From: Pseudomonadota bacterium
GTDB taxonomy: Bacteria; Pseudomonadota; Gammaproteobacteria; Burkholderiales; Rhodocyclaceae
Direction: 5' to 3'
DNA: 64,000 bases
Assembly: GCA_029776255.1 (NCBI GenBank)
Contig: JAKOTN010000026.1
Coordinates: 124,001-188,000, forward strand
The translations under genes and the position numbers were made by a program. Shown one piece after another: positions 3,818 to 34,651 of the stretch (positions within the stretch are counted from its first letter, which is position 1; each line of letters opens with the position of its first letter). The notes beneath the pieces were generated by a model. It saw nothing but the letters and a program-made list of their open reading frames with translations. It was not told the origin of the DNA and made no database searches.

Positions 3818-5353
3818 ATGTTGAAGCGAATTTCCTGGTCGTTGGCACTGATGGCGTTCCTTTGTCTTGGCCAGACCTTGACGGCGTTTGCCGCTGAACG
3901 GCGTGTCGCGCTGGTGATCGGCAACGCCAAGTACAAGGAAGCGCCGCTGAGCAACCCGGTCAATGACGCACGCGACATGGCGGCCGCCCTTCAGCGCACG
4001 GGCTTCGAAGTCATCACCGCTCTCGACGCCTCGCAAAAAGAAATGAACCGCGCGATCGCCCGATTCGGCGATTTCCTCAAGGACGACACCGTCGCCCTGT
4101 TTTACTACGCCGGACACGGCATGCAGGTACGCGGGAAAAACTATCTGATCCCGATTGATGCGGAAATCAAGAGCGAGTCGTCGGTTCGCGTCGAGTCCGT
4201 CGATGTCGACGGGGTCTTGGATCAGTTGAGCGCCAGCGACTTGAACGTGGTCATTCTCGACGCCTGCCGCAACAACCCGTTCGAACGCCGAGCCAACCGA
4301 AGCGTTGGGTCGGGCGGTCTGGCGCAAATGGAAGCACCGAAAGGCACCCTGATCGCCTATGCCACGGCACCAGGACGGACCGCTGCCGACGGCGACGGGC
4401 GTAACGGTTTGTATACCCAGGAATTACTCAAACAAATCCAGGTTCCGGGTTTGACCATTGAACAAGTGTTCAAGAACGTGCGCCGTGAAGTCGCCAAGGC
4501 CACCCGTGACGGGCAAATTCCTTGGGAATCCTCGTCGATGACCGGTGATTTTTATTTCCTACCGGGCTCCCGGACCCCGATAACGGCTAGCCCGAACACG
4601 CACCGGTCGGAAAAAATCGCCTCTGCCCCGCCCGCATCGCCTGCCAAGAACGTGGAAGTCCGGCCAGTCAGCAAACCCGTCGCCATTGAACACACCGAAC
4701 GACCATTGCCGCCTCCTTCAAACCCGACGACGCCGGAAGAAATCAAAACGGCAATGTCGTCGACGGCGCTGCCGACACCAACCGTTCCCGGAGCGGAAAC
4801 CGCGAGAGTGGCGCAGATTTCCGAAGGGCAAGAGAAAGTACTCAAAACCGATGCGTTCACCGCCACCGGCAACTGGTCGCTTGAACGCTCCAGTGGGGCC
4901 ATGACGGGCGAAGGCAATATCGAATGGAAAAATGGCGACCGTTACGAAGGTGCGCTGGTCGCGGGCAAGAAAACCGGCAAAGGCATCTTCACTTGGCACA
5001 ACGGGCAGCGCTACGACGGCGAGTGGCGTGACGACATCATCAACGGCGCCGGCATCTTGCATTACACCAACGGCGACCGCTACGAAGGAACTTTCAAGGA
5101 CGGCGAACCGCATGGCACTGGAACGTACACCCTGCGCAACGGCGATGTCTATACTGGCGCTTGGTTCACCGGTAACCGTCACGGTTTTGGTCGCCTGACA
5201 TGGACCACTGGCGATTACTGGGAAGGTGAGTTTCGCGACGGAAAACAGACTGAAAATGGGCGCATGCACTCCATCTCGTCGCTGCTGGAGAAAAATGCCG
5301 ACAAAATGGCTAGCGTCACCGACAAAAACGCAAGCAAGAAAAAGAACAAATAA
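3818..5353 (+). CDS. Secreted caspase family (C14) protein with C-terminal MORN repeats
   Basis: Signal peptide MLKRISWSLALMAFLCLGQTLTAFA; FYYAGHG (His) and ILDACRNNPF (Cys) dyad; repeated GDRYEGxxxxGKxxGxGxxxxxNG MORN units. Confidence 0.9.
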   Translation: MLKRISWSLALMAFLCLGQTLTAFAAERRVALVIGNAKYKEAPLSNPVNDARDMAAALQRTGFEVITALDASQKEMNRAIARFGDFLKDDTVALFYYAGHGMQVRGKNYLIPIDAEIKSESSVRVESVDVDGVLDQLSASDLNVVILDACRNNPFERRANRSVGSGGLAQMEAPKGTLIAYATAPGRTAADGDGRNGLYTQELLKQIQVPGLTIEQVFKNVRREVAKATRDGQIPWESSSMTGDFYFLPGSRTPITASPNTHRSEKIASAPPASPAKNVEVRPVSKPVAIEHTERPLPPPSNPTTPEEIKTAMSSTALPTPTVPGAETARVAQISEGQEKVLKTDAFTATGNWSLERSSGAMTGEGNIEWKNGDRYEGALVAGKKTGKGIFTWHNGQRYDGEWRDDIINGAGILHYTNGDRYEGTFKDGEPHGTGTYTLRNGDVYTGAWFTGNRHGFGRLTWTTGDYWEGEFRDGKQTENGRMHSISSLLEKNADKMASVTDKNASKKKNK

Positions 5354-5377
5354 AAGGCGGAGCCACCGGCGACACGG

Positions 5378-5701
5378 CTATATTCCCCGCATCAGACCCA
5401 TGTCGACCAATTCAACACGCAGCTTTCTCCAGCCACGCCAGACGAAGAAGCCGCGCATCCCCCAGCGCCATACGCCACGCGGTCGTATCATTACCAACAG
5501 CACCAGCGCAGCCGCCGCCACCGCGCCAGGATGCTTCTCAAGATAATCGGTGCCTTTTTTGAGCGAGCTGACCGCGCGATCAGTCGCCCGCAAAGCACGA
5601 TCCAGCGGCAGCAGTTGCTGTTGCAATTGCCGCCGCTGAATACTGCTACGTTCCATCAGCCGGCCACGCTGAACAGCGAGATCGATCAGCGCTTGATTCA
5701 T
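5378..5701 (-). CDS. YqjK-like small protein
   Basis: MNQALIDLAVQRGRLMERSSIQRRQLQQQLLPLDRALRATDR...; third gene of a YqjD/E/K-like cluster. Confidence 0.6.
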   Translation of the reverse strand: MNQALIDLAVQRGRLMERSSIQRRQLQQQLLPLDRALRATDRAVSSLKKGTDYLEKHPGAVAAAALVLLVMIRPRGVWRWGMRGFFVWRGWRKLRVELVDMGLMRGI

Positions 5702-6093
5702 TACGACTGGCTCCCCTTGATCTGGTGCAAATCTTCCTGAAGCTCGGCCATACTGCTGGAAAAAAGATTGTCGGGCCGGTTCATGGCACGTCTGACGGCC
5801 TGGCCGGCCAGACCGCCAATCAAGAAGAACAGAGCGGTGAAACTGCCGAGAACGACCACGCGGTGTTCCCAATAGAGCGCAAGAAGCCAGGCGATGGCCA
5901 GGAGCGCACCGATCAGAAGCCCGAATGCGGCGACCAGCGCCAACAATAGCATCCGGACGACACGCAGCTTCTCCTCCTTGATTTCGTTACCAAGAAGTTC
6001 AAGCCGTGTCCTGACGATGGACAGCACTGTCGCGATACTGCCTTTCGCAGAACCCAGCACGCCGCCGCGCTCATGATTGGAAGATGGCGTCAT
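5701..6093 (-). CDS. Phage holin family protein (YqjE-like)
   Basis: 130 aa with two TM helices; follows the DUF883 gene. Confidence 0.7.
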   Translation of the reverse strand: MTPSSNHERGGVLGSAKGSIATVLSIVRTRLELLGNEIKEEKLRVVRMLLLALVAAFGLLIGALLAIAWLLALYWEHRVVVLGSFTALFFLIGGLAGQAVRRAMNRPDNLFSSSMAELQEDLHQIKGSQS

Positions 6094-6118
6094 TATGGCC
6101 AGACGTCGGCAACCAAAC

Positions 6119-6439
6119 TCAACGACGGCCGATGATCACGCCGAGCAGCAGACCGATACCCGCCGCGACACCGACGGCACGCCAGGGATTTTCATGCACG
6201 TAGTCGTCGGTAGCACGGGCGGCGGCTTTGGTTCGATCTACCAGAACGGCCTCGGCATCCGCCAGACGAAGTTTGGCGTCGCGCAACCGCTCGCCGACGC
6301 GCTCCCGCAAGTCGGCCATTTTTTCCCCGGCGACACCGGCGGTGGCGCGGAGGATCTCTTCGGCGTCGGCGACGACGCCTTTCATGTCGGAGACGAGTTT
6401 TTGCTTGCTAGTAGCGGAAAGTTCGGTAACTTCAGACAT
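6119..6439 (-). CDS. DUF883 family protein (YqjD/ElaB-like)
   Basis: DDYVHENPWRAVGVAAGIGLLLGVIIGRR C-terminal anchor. Confidence 0.88.
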   Translation of the reverse strand: MSEVTELSATSKQKLVSDMKGVVADAEEILRATAGVAGEKMADLRERVGERLRDAKLRLADAEAVLVDRTKAAARATDDYVHENPWRAVGVAAGIGLLLGVIIGRR

Positions 6440-6515
6440 TCTGGGCCTCGCAGTGGAAGGTGTTGATGGCGTGAGGAAAGTTGGTGGAATACCAAGCGTT
6501 GCGCCGAGCGCCTAG

Positions 6516-6521
6516 ATTATA
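6516..6521 (-). promoter_or_regulatory. Possible -10 element upstream of the DUF883-holin-YqjK operon
   Basis: TATAAT on minus strand (CCTATAATCTAGG) about 75 nt upstream of the ATG; no convincing -35. Confidence 0.35.
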
Positions 6522-6681
6522 GGAGTCGCGAGCCGAGATCAATGCAAAGCAATCATAACGCCCCTCGATCCAGCGGTCGGCGCATCGTATTTCCGAACAA
6601 GTTCCGCATGGAGACCCGCCAAGCAGTGAACAGAGAATGGGTAGAGGTTTCCCGAACCCGGCTATCGGCAGCGCGCGTTGA

Positions 6682-30321: not shown

Positions 30322-30969
30322 GTGTCAGAGTCTCTGCGGGAACTGCTAATCGAACTCGAAAAATTCGGCTTGTGCAACGACGGCGCCATTGCTGAACGGC
30401 CGCGGCGAATGCTGAATATCACCCGAGACACCGGGGAGTTTCTTTCGGTGCTCGTTCAGGCGACGAATGCTCGGCGCGTACTCGAGATAGGAACATCCAA
30501 TGGCTATTCGACACTCTGGCTTGCCGCGGCGGCGAAGGCAATCGATGGGCACGTGACGACCATCGAACCGTCCGATTTCAAACTCTCACTGGCCACAAGC
30601 AACTTTGAACGATCCGGTCTTGGTCGGTACATCACGCCGATTCACGGTGAGGCAGGCGCGATACTCATGCAGAGTCCCGAATCGAGTTTCGACCTTGTCT
30701 TTTTGGATTCCGAGCGCTCCGAGTACTCGGGTTGGTGGCCTGACATCAAGCGCATTCTTCGTAAAGGCGGGTTGCTTGTCGTGGATAACGCCACCTCTCA
30801 CTCGGCCGAACTGGCGCCTTTCGTCGAATTGGTTTGCAAGGACCCTGAATTCACCACGTGTACCGTACCGGTCGGGAACGGCGAGTTCTTGGCAACACGC
30901 GCTTGCGCGCAGGCAAGCCTATTGATAACCAACCGTCCCGGCCACGAAAATAGTGGCCGGGACCGCTGA
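30322..30969 (+). CDS. O-methyltransferase (class I SAM-dependent)
   Basis: RRVLEIGTSNGYSTLWLAAAAKAIDGHVTTIEPSDFK...FDLVFLDSERSEYSGWW. Confidence 0.87.
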   Translation: MSESLRELLIELEKFGLCNDGAIAERPRRMLNITRDTGEFLSVLVQATNARRVLEIGTSNGYSTLWLAAAAKAIDGHVTTIEPSDFKLSLATSNFERSGLGRYITPIHGEAGAILMQSPESSFDLVFLDSERSEYSGWWPDIKRILRKGGLLVVDNATSHSAELAPFVELVCKDPEFTTCTVPVGNGEFLATRACAQASLLITNRPGHENSGRDR

Positions 30970-31040: not shown

Positions 31041-33329
31041 TTAGAACTTCGCCGACCAAATCGCGCCGATGCTGGCATCGCGGCTGCCGGCCACGTTCAT
31101 GACATCCTGGCGAGCACTGAACTGCAGGCTGAGCGACTGTGTCTTGCCGATGGGCGTGTCGTAGGCCATGGCGAAATCCAGTTCTCTGCCATTGGGAACG
31201 AGACTGACTTTCTCGGCGGCGTAATGCGCCACACCCAAGCTATCGATACTGGGCATGGTCACGCCAACCGTGCCGGCAACGATGCGCAACGGCTGCTTGA
31301 CCGACACCGTCAGTTTGTCGTTCTGGTTCAAGAGTTGTTTCGACAGATAGGTCATGCCGTAGGATCGGGACTGTATGTCAGACGTCCCGGCCAACAGTCC
31401 GCCGCTATTGCTGCCTTGAGTGAATCCAAAGCCGACCTCGGCCAACAGGCTGTTGTTGGCGTCAATCGCATAACCCAATGAAAATCCAACGCTGTTTGTC
31501 CGGTTACTGCCCAGGCTAATGGCCGAACCCGACGCATAATTGGCACCCAGGAGACCGCTTTTCTCGTTCAATTGGCCAAGGGATACGCCGCCGGTCCAGC
31601 GCTCATTCAGCCGATGGGTTATCCCGAGCAGGACATTGGACGCGTTGGGCGCGCCACCGGTCTGTACCAAGGTCGGATTACCGGCGTAAAAAGTGGTCGG
31701 CGTCTGGCTGAACGCCACGGCGACACGGGTTTCCTTGTCGACTTTCGTTCCATAGGCCAGGTGATACCCTCCCTGAGAAAGATCCGACAAATTCGACATG
31801 CTCAGATCACCGGCCATCAACGACAAGTCGCTATCGCCATATAGCGCCTTGGCGAAAGAGAGTTGACTCGGAATACCGTAGCCCATGGACAGGGTACTGC
31901 CCGCACCATTGGTATATGTCATGTAGCCTGCTTCGGGTGCTTCTGGAAAATCGCCGTTCCAGAATACGCCCATCCGGTCCACCAGAGTGGTCGCGGTGGT
32001 CTGCCAGCGCGACAGTTCGCCGCCGTTGCTGAGCTTCATTACCGCCACGCCAGAGTTCAGATTGGACGGCAAGGGGTTCTGCTTGGCAGCGGTCGGCTTG
32101 GTTTGTATCAGGCCGGACAAGTCGACAGTGAAATTGCGCGCGTAGGTGTCCAAAGCCGTGTAGCTGGCCAGCTTTGAACGGACGGTCGACAAATTACCCA
32201 AAGCGCCACCGGTCAACATCGAACCGGTAAGGCTTGTAACGGGCACGGCCTTGCCGTTGGCCTGCGTGACCGACAGACCTCCCACGGGCTGGAAAGCGGT
32301 CGTCAGATTGACCAAGCCGGTTCCATAGACACTATCCACCCCCTTGGTTCCGAGATCGTTGGCCGTGCCGAGCAACAAGTTGGCGGCGGTACCGTTGGTT
32401 TTGAGAATCGGCCAGGCCGATTCCAACAGCAGCAACGACCCGCTGATCAGAGGAGCGGCCATCGACGTCCCGGACCACAGCGCCATGGCCCCCGGACCGT
32501 ATTGAATTCCCGGCGCCATGATGTTGACCCCGGGCGCCGAAATCCAGCGCGAGGCATAGCTCGTCTTGCCACCCCCGGTGTCCACCAAAGACCCGGCACC
32601 GGGGGAACTGCTGAACGAAGCGGCCTTGGCGGCGGTGGTATCCAGCGCACCGGCGAATACAAGGTGATTGACGGCATTTTTTGTCAGCCCACTGGTATTG
32701 GCATTGGCCAGTAGCGCCTTGCCATCGTTTCCACCCGCCCAGACGATGAACACGCCTTTAGCCGCAGCGTTGTTGACGGCGGCAATGATGTCGGGAGTGG
32801 CCATGTAGGTCAGCGACAGATTGATGACGCTGACGCCGGCGGCGACGGCTTTGTTGATGCCGTTCGACACATCGGTGTTGTAGCCAGAACCGCTGGCGTT
32901 CAGCACTTTCTCCGCGACGATGTTGGCATTGGGAGCGACCCCGATGAAGCTGTTGGCCGCCACTGTGTAGCCAGAGTAAAGATAGGTGTAGGCGGTTGGC
33001 TTGTTGGCAGCGGCGATGGACGCCACGGCGGTGCCGTGGCCGTTGTCGTCCATCGCGCCGTTGGAGCATTTGAAAGAGGTCGCCGCGCAAGAACTGAGCA
33101 CATTGGATACCTGGCCGGCGGCAAATACGGGATTGCTGGCGACGATGCCCGTGTCGACCACACCGAGCACCTGCCCCTTGCCCCAGTTGGCGGCCGAGAG
33201 GATGGTGGTGGTTTCTCCCATTTGCGTCAGCCACGGCGCGAGGCCGGGGGCGGCATGGAGATTCAGGCTGGCGATGGCGGACAAGACAGCGGCGGCTGTC
33301 GTTGAAAGTCTTGCTATCGGTTGTTTCAT
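31041..33329 (-). CDS. S8 (subtilisin-like) serine peptidase autotransporter
   Basis: Catalytic motifs VVDTGI (Asp), NGHGTAVASI (His), SGTSMAAPLISG (Ser); C-terminal amphipathic beta strands ending in F. Confidence 0.9.
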   Translation of the reverse strand: MKQPIARLSTTAAAVLSAIASLNLHAAPGLAPWLTQMGETTTILSAANWGKGQVLGVVDTGIVASNPVFAAGQVSNVLSSCAATSFKCSNGAMDDNGHGTAVASIAAANKPTAYTYLYSGYTVAANSFIGVAPNANIVAEKVLNASGSGYNTDVSNGINKAVAAGVSVINLSLTYMATPDIIAAVNNAAAKGVFIVWAGGNDGKALLANANTSGLTKNAVNHLVFAGALDTTAAKAASFSSSPGAGSLVDTGGGKTSYASRWISAPGVNIMAPGIQYGPGAMALWSGTSMAAPLISGSLLLLESAWPILKTNGTAANLLLGTANDLGTKGVDSVYGTGLVNLTTAFQPVGGLSVTQANGKAVPVTSLTGSMLTGGALGNLSTVRSKLASYTALDTYARNFTVDLSGLIQTKPTAAKQNPLPSNLNSGVAVMKLSNGGELSRWQTTATTLVDRMGVFWNGDFPEAPEAGYMTYTNGAGSTLSMGYGIPSQLSFAKALYGDSDLSLMAGDLSMSNLSDLSQGGYHLAYGTKVDKETRVAVAFSQTPTTFYAGNPTLVQTGGAPNASNVLLGITHRLNERWTGGVSLGQLNEKSGLLGANYASGSAISLGSNRTNSVGFSLGYAIDANNSLLAEVGFGFTQGSNSGGLLAGTSDIQSRSYGMTYLSKQLLNQNDKLTVSVKQPLRIVAGTVGVTMPSIDSLGVAHYAAEKVSLVPNGRELDFAMAYDTPIGKTQSLSLQFSARQDVMNVAGSRDASIGAIWSAKF

Positions 33330-33331
33330 CT

Positions 33332-33357
33332 CGATTTCCTTTCAGTTAGGGAAATCG
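33332..33357 (-). promoter_or_regulatory. Hairpin overlapping the Shine-Dalgarno of the autotransporter (putative riboswitch expression platform)
   Basis: Minus-strand RNA CGATTTCC-CTAACTGAAA-GGAAATCG-AG-AUG: perfect 8-bp stem, 2 nt before the start codon, containing the GGA of the SD. Confidence 0.6.
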
Positions 33358-33401
33358 GGGATGCAAAGCGACTGACGGATGACGAAACGTCGTTGCGACG
33401 C

Positions 33402-33482
33402 CCCGGCGGCCCGGCTGGCATAGAGTTTCCTCCTTAGCCCCGCAGCTTTGCGCCCCCGGCTTTCGACGGGTTTGCCATTTGA
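33402..33482 (-). ncRNA. Cyclic di-GMP-I (GEMM-I) riboswitch
   Basis: AATGGCAAACCCGTCGAAAGCCGGGGGCGCAAAGCTGCGGGGCTAAGGAGGAAACTCTATGCCAGCCGGGCCGCC matches GEMM-I hallmarks: GGCAAACC, GAAA tetraloop, GCGCAAAGC, CUAAG...UAUG tetraloop receptor, AGCCGGG 3' element. Confidence 0.92.
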
Positions 33483-33502
33483 TTTGGTTTGCCATTTGAT
33501 TT
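33469..33502. repeat. Perfect 17-bp tandem duplication at the 5' edge of the riboswitch
   Basis: GGTTTGCCATTTGATTT at 33469-33485 and 33486-33502 (+ strand). Confidence 0.95.
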
Positions 33503-33742
33503 GTATAGAAAGGCTAGTTTACGGAGACGCGATCGTCAACGCGATTCTTGCTTCGAAAACAAAAATATTTTTGTTCGCCGCAAGGCCATGAGCGTAGCGC
33601 GACATAGCGGCACCCGTGGCGTTCTGTGGCAAGATCCGGCGATGCGCAGCCTTCATGGCCTGGACAATGACCATCGTCCCACTAAGTTGAGCAACAAGTT
33701 TGGCGTTCAAGAAAACGACGCCCTGGTTTCGAGAGTGCGTTG

Positions 33743-34651
33743 GTGAACACCCGATCGCGATTGACGGGTGTCGGCTTCGGCCTGCTTGCCTACGGGATGT
33801 GGGGCTTCTTTCCGCTGTTCTTTCGACACCTCGCGCATGTGCCACCAATGGATGTGCTGAGCAATCGCGCGGTCTGGGCCTGTTTTTTTGTCGGATTACT
33901 GCTGACGCTGCGCGGACAGTGGCGTCAAGTGGCGGCGGTTTGCCGAAGTTGGCGTCATCTGGCGTGGCTCTCCGTCGCCGCCGCGCTGATCGGCAGCAAC
34001 TGGCTGATTTTCCTGTGGGCGGTCGCCAATCGGCAGGTCACGGCCTCCAGCTTGGGATACTTCCTCACACCTTTGGTCAATGTGCTGCTCGGCCTGCTGG
34101 TACTCAAGGAGCGCCTGAATCGCCTGGAATGGCTCTCTGTCGCGCTGGCCTTCGCGGCGATCGCTAACGAAATTCTGGTTATCGGACGCCTGCCATGGGT
34201 GTCATTGGCCCTCGCCGGCACGTTCGGCACCTACGGCTTGGTCCGCAAGCGCTTGCCGGTCGACGCGATGAGCGGATTGTGGCTGGAAACCTTGGCGATG
34301 CTGCCGGTGTGCGGGATATACGTCTGGTGGCAATGGCAACACGGTTTTCCGCCGGTATTCGGTGATCGCGATGCGACGACAACCGCTTTGCTGATCGGTG
34401 CCGGGGCGCTAACCGCGCTGCCACTGCTGGCCTTCGCGGCAGCGACGCGACGGTTGGACTTGGCGACGGTCGGCATGTTGATGTACATCAATCCCACACT
34501 GCAATTCGCAACGGCCATCGCGGTTTTCGGCGAACCACTGCAAACGGCACGTTTGATCAGCTTCGGTTTGATCTGGCTCGGCTTAGGGGTGTTCAGCGCC
34601 AGCGCCTGGCGAGCGTACCGCCAACCCGTGCAAAGACAGGCAACTAGGTGA
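33743..34651 (+). CDS. rarD: EamA family transporter RarD
   Basis: [42 protein letters not shown]. Confidence 0.9.

Follow-up and report, generated by a model that had tools for sequence, protein, structure and literature searches.

The 64-kb stretch of DNA analysed here (the window) carries a canonical c-di-GMP-I (GEMM-I) riboswitch that most likely acts as an OFF switch on the translation of a single gene for a secreted, probably autotransported protease, a reading that we consider reasonably probable. The aptamer, its conserved linkage to the protease gene and a hairpin enclosing the Shine-Dalgarno (SD) sequence were each found by computation. In Gram-negative bacteria, adhesin-cleaving proteases are well known to be controlled by c-di-GMP through proteins (Lap-type systems). 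RNA-based c-di-GMP control of such proteases is known from one case, in C. difficile. There c-di-GMP represses the secreted metalloprotease PPEP-1/ZmpI (CD2830), whose gene has a class I c-di-GMP riboswitch, and the adhesins that this enzyme cleaves are induced via class II riboswitches (PMC6366702, PMC11477304). With this precedent, a riboswitch-controlled secreted protease is not new in principle. The window holds a further example of a known riboswitch class, within what is apparently an undescribed proteolysis regulon, and loci of this kind offer simple one-gene units for studying RNA-based c-di-GMP control of extracellular proteolysis.

The GEMM-I aptamer and the S8 protease gene

Positions 33486-33402 on the minus strand were matched by cmscan (Rfam 15) to RF01051 over the full length of the model (positions 1-87 of 87), with 73.9 bits (gathering score 35 bits) and an E value of 1.3e-12. 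A sequence-only reading of the window had placed a GEMM-I riboswitch at 33402-33482 and had given no strand. The identification was borne out, and its coordinates were revised to 33486-33402 on the minus strand. That reading had also named a covariance-model search with RF01051 as a check; the score was significant and far above the cut-off, so the computational test that could have overturned the call came out in its favour. All of the landmarks that it had listed are present and in order on the minus strand: GGCAAACC, the GAAA loop, GCGCAAAGC, CUAAGG...CUAUG and AGCCGGGC. Within the window cmscan matched no other riboswitch, and the genome (3.79 Mb, 100%-complete assembly) has no further RF01051 match.

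In the cmscan alignment, Rfam position 11, which corresponds to the ligand-selecting G20 of Vc2, is occupied by a G. A G at this position gives selectivity for c-di-GMP, and an A there would favour cGAMP. The predicted ligand is therefore c-di-GMP rather than cGAMP, and the cGAMP (A20) reading was ruled out. By sequence, this is a canonical c-di-GMP-I riboswitch. The Vibrio cholerae GEMM-I riboswitches Vc1 and Vc2 share the aptamer class and the key residue G20 with it, whereas their target genes and platforms differ. Direct reading of the sequence also revealed a 17-nt perfect tandem duplication of CAAATCAAATGGCAAAC (33470-33503 in total, minus strand). The second copy (33470-33486) makes up the 5' strand of the aptamer, and the extra upstream copy (33487-33503) puts an additional GGCAAAC ahead of it; the duplication was absent from the orthologue leaders inspected in the same way. 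A consensus scan found no sigma-70 promoter ahead of the riboswitch. TATACA at 33507-33502 is a candidate promoter element, although this is a guess only.

The aptamer lies 72 nt from the ATG (33329) of a minus-strand gene (31041-33329) encoding a 762-aa secreted S8 subtilase. Pfam assigned residues 50-338 to Peptidase_S8 (PF00082, E 2e-34), and the catalytic triad, read from motifs as D59, H98 and S289, is invariant in five orthologues. By inspection, the N-terminus is a signal peptide. The C-terminus is OMP-like, with alternating hydrophobic residues and a final Phe as is typical of outer-membrane barrels, and is conserved in 12 homologues, making a C-terminal outer-membrane β-barrel probable. 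PF03797 was not matched by the protease in Pfam, a PDB sequence search gave no match for the barrel region, and AlphaFold2 returned a pLDDT of ~30 for both the whole protease and its C-terminal 318 aa, from a two-sequence input that makes these models unusable. The sequence-only reading had described the target as an S8 autotransporter: the S8 assignment stands on the domain match, and the autotransporter assignment, which rests on the conserved OMP-like C-terminus, is kept as probable because neither profile nor structure (Pfam, PDB, AlphaFold2) confirmed the barrel. Neisserial NalP-type S8 autotransporters, which carry out surface or secreted proteolysis, likewise have a signal peptide, an S8 passenger and a barrel-like C-terminal end. 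In contrast, NalP is controlled by phase variation rather than by a riboswitch, and the barrel region of the window protein is without a sequence match to solved structures.

The upstream neighbour (33740-34651) runs divergently from the protease gene, and a terminator-like hairpin of 11 pairs, a consensus match only, lies 3' of the gene on the minus strand (30935-30963). The locus thus looks like a one-gene unit. It is the only S8 gene found in the genome and adjoins the sole GEMM-I match; the same genome has 28 GGDEF domains.

Conservation of the riboswitch-protease pairing

Genomes of the genus, family and order were searched with the protease as query, and homologues were counted as strong at E <= 1e-60 in the family and 1e-100 in the order. 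A same-strand c-di-GMP-I aptamer was found directly upstream of a strong homologue in 17 of 20 genomes (G000, G004, G005, G106, G147, G062, G324, G109, G158, G290, G136, G278, G048, G373, G550, G607 and G635), and the pairing extends to a second family of the order. The aptamer and the SD hairpin are kept across proteins that are 52-70% identical, with linkers that vary in sequence and length. This conserved pairing supports c-di-GMP control of an extracellular protease by RNA, as the sequence-only reading had suggested. In four S8-linked relatives (L035, L041, L052 and L056), the c-di-GMP-I-GGC variant RF03167 outscores RF01051, whereas the window aptamer is of the RF01051 type.

The three genomes with a strong homologue and no upstream aptamer are G365, G428 and G219. 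G219 shares its sequence upstream of the gene with L033, in which the aptamer has been lost except for a short 3' stub, the platform is still recognisable and the protease frame is interrupted (L033 region 4900-6600, break near 6029), possibly through joint decay of aptamer and protease or partly through an assembly error in the MAG. A Propionivibrio MAG encodes the nearest named relative of the protease that we found (83% in the best segment). Its sequence upstream of the protease gene is identical to that of G219, a genome from the same family as the window, so that the window most likely belongs to Rhodocyclaceae.

The expression platform and the direction of switching

A consensus scan detected no terminator-like site between the aptamer and the ATG, and an intrinsic-terminator platform was rejected on this ground. 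In the predicted fold, the SD AAAGGAA (33336-33342, minus strand) is inside an 8-bp hairpin formed by an anti-SD arm, CGAUUUCC (33350-33357, minus strand), and an SD arm, GGAAAUCG (33332-33339, minus strand). Opening the SD costs 8.9 kcal/mol in the window compared to 4.1+-1.9 kcal/mol when the upstream sequence is shuffled (z +2.5), and 0 of 150 shuffles were equally strong. We folded 15 riboswitch leaders, 13 belonging to homologues and two (G052 and G024) to more distant S8 genes. The SD was harder to open than in shuffles in all 15, with z-values from +0.6 to +5.5 that are not independent since the leaders are related. Two riboswitch-less homologues gave no SD hiding (z -1.1 and -0.35). 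The arms of the hairpin differ in sequence and length among leaders yet still pair, as with CGATTTCC/GGAAATCG in the window, GTCTCCAGAGT/ACTCTGGAGAC in G109 and TTCTCCGG/CCGGAGAA in G290. The presence of SD hiding in riboswitch leaders and not in the two riboswitch-less homologues points to translational control, with the modelled platform acting through SD sequestration.

The platform also contains a putative anti-aptamer block, GCUUUGCAUCCCC (33357-33369, minus strand), recognised by complementarity and conservation, that can pair with an aptamer core segment, GGGGGCGCAAAGC (33445-33457, minus strand), at 12 of 13 positions. This helix forms in the ligand-free MFE fold of the leader, and its pairing score was reached by 0 of 500 shuffles. 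Among five orthologues the block hardly varies, unlike its flanks. When the aptamer was left free to pair, the SD opening cost of the window fell from 9.0 to 3.9 kcal/mol, as computed with energy models that omit tertiary contacts and co-transcriptional folding. The drop went beyond that obtained with shuffled aptamers in nine of the 15 leaders, clearly in eight (z about -1.7 or below) and weakly in one; in six of 15 the aptamer had no helpful effect on SD opening. A free aptamer that lowers the SD opening cost favours an OFF switch. In the window, the predicted ligand-free fold contains both the alternative helix and the SD hairpin, so that the switch is not cleanly exclusive and its direction is held with moderate confidence.

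We infer that the leader binds its ligand and responds to it as an OFF switch. With c-di-GMP abundant, the aptamer would fold and its core would be unavailable to the platform; with the core sequestered in the ligand-bound fold, the local anti-SD:SD hairpin would mask the ribosome-binding site. When c-di-GMP is scarce, the platform strand (GCUUUGCAUCCCC-GAUUUCC) could pair with the aptamer core (GAAAGCC-GGGGGCGCAAAGC), the SD would become cheaper to open and the protease would be made. On a fall in c-di-GMP the protease, which we infer to be displayed on the surface, would then release surface proteins or cells.

The same riboswitch might instead work as an ON switch, in which the ligand frees the SD and protease synthesis belongs to the sessile, high-c-di-GMP state, for example for matrix remodelling or scavenging. 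GEMM-I riboswitches can be ON or OFF by context (PMC6366702), and in the leaders of G109, G158, G290 and G324, which have a strong SD hairpin, folding gives no direction. We nevertheless consider an ON switch unlikely: across most of the close group's leaders, a free, unliganded aptamer strand makes the SD cheaper to open, and no element was found that opens the SD hairpin upon ligand binding.

Two further alternatives are less probable still. The aptamer itself holds an SD (AAGGAGG) and an AUG (33421) that open a 31-codon frame (33421-33326, minus strand), whose UGA overlaps the protease AUG (AUGA), and ribosomes could reach the protease by this leader-peptide route when the aptamer is open. 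Frame and overlap are present in the window and in G324. However, G004 and G005 reach a stop in this frame after 13 codons, L032 has AAG in place of the AUG, and several leaders have no such frame; since the aptamer consensus itself includes the AUG, its occurrence is explained by chance. With the frame not conserved, we rejected this coupling as very improbable. About as improbable, and in our judgement the least probable of the readings, is that the aptamer is a decayed or non-functional remnant inherited from an ancestor and that the protease is under some other control. The relative L033 did lose its aptamer, and the aptamer of the window carries the 17-nt duplication. Yet that loss accompanies an interrupted protease frame, and elsewhere aptamer and SD hairpin have been maintained between diverged proteins while the linkers vary.

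GEMM-I loci ahead of other secreted proteases

For 135 other GEMM-I loci (55 of mixed family and order origin and 80 from the family), with the homologue set excluded, we surveyed the first ORF downstream. With ORFs chosen mechanically, only the best-scoring loci taken and related species represented more than once, the survey figures are estimates. Pfam placed Peptidase_S8 downstream of 13 of the 55 and 10 of the 80 loci, and DUF1631 downstream of 9 and 19, respectively (28/135). Motif reading identified 22 S8 and 18 metzincin-type (HExxHxxGxxH) proteins among the 135 loci, the latter calls being backed by Pfam matches to Reprolysin, M10 and M11. About 40 of the 135 loci (~30%) thus lie ahead of secreted-type proteases of unrelated families. 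Sampled genomes have only 1-3 S8 genes each, and a riboswitch was upstream of 14 of 26 S8 genes in 12 genomes that had been chosen for carrying such pairs.

Rhodocyclaceae include major formers of wastewater granules and biofilms. We think it fairly probable that GEMM-I riboswitches in this family and its neighbours define an undescribed c-di-GMP regulon devoted largely to extracellular proteolysis, serving as a general switch for release enzymes upon changes in c-di-GMP. Unrelated protease families would each have come under GEMM-I control, namely autotransporter-like S8, prodomain-type S8, RTX serralysin-like M10 and reprolysin-like metalloproteases, alongside the DUF1631 group. The riboswitch stands before an outer-membrane-type protease in two families of one betaproteobacterial order and also before unrelated secreted proteases, which suggests that RNA-based c-di-GMP control of proteolysis arose repeatedly. 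In the accessible literature, which takes in few subscription papers and is weak evidence on this point, we found no report of GEMM-I with subtilisin, autotransporters, Rhodocyclaceae or DUF1631.

The closest known system, C. difficile CD2830 (ppep-1/zmpI), resembles the window in that a GEMM-I aptamer occupies the leader of a gene for a secreted protease. There, c-di-GMP control is negative and release of surface adhesins is proposed; an OFF direction is likewise suggested for the window. The CD2830 enzyme is a zinc metalloprotease of a Gram-positive host, whereas the window encodes an unrelated S8 subtilase in a Gram-negative host. The platform of the window also resembles SD sequestration rather than a terminator, unlike that of CD2830.

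DUF1631, a domain with no known function, may belong to c-di-GMP signalling; its loci include L002, L015, L016, L112, L129 and L137. In four genomes from the genus of the window (L027-L030), a GEMM-I aptamer directly precedes an RTX serralysin-like M10 metalloprotease. On G240:C1 and G279:C1 (L064, L065, L097 and L098), duplicated S8 genes lie next to each other, ~2.2 kb apart, and each copy has a GEMM-I aptamer to itself; G030:C18 has a divergent pair of GEMM-I aptamers ~350 nt apart (88577-89104; L008 and L108).
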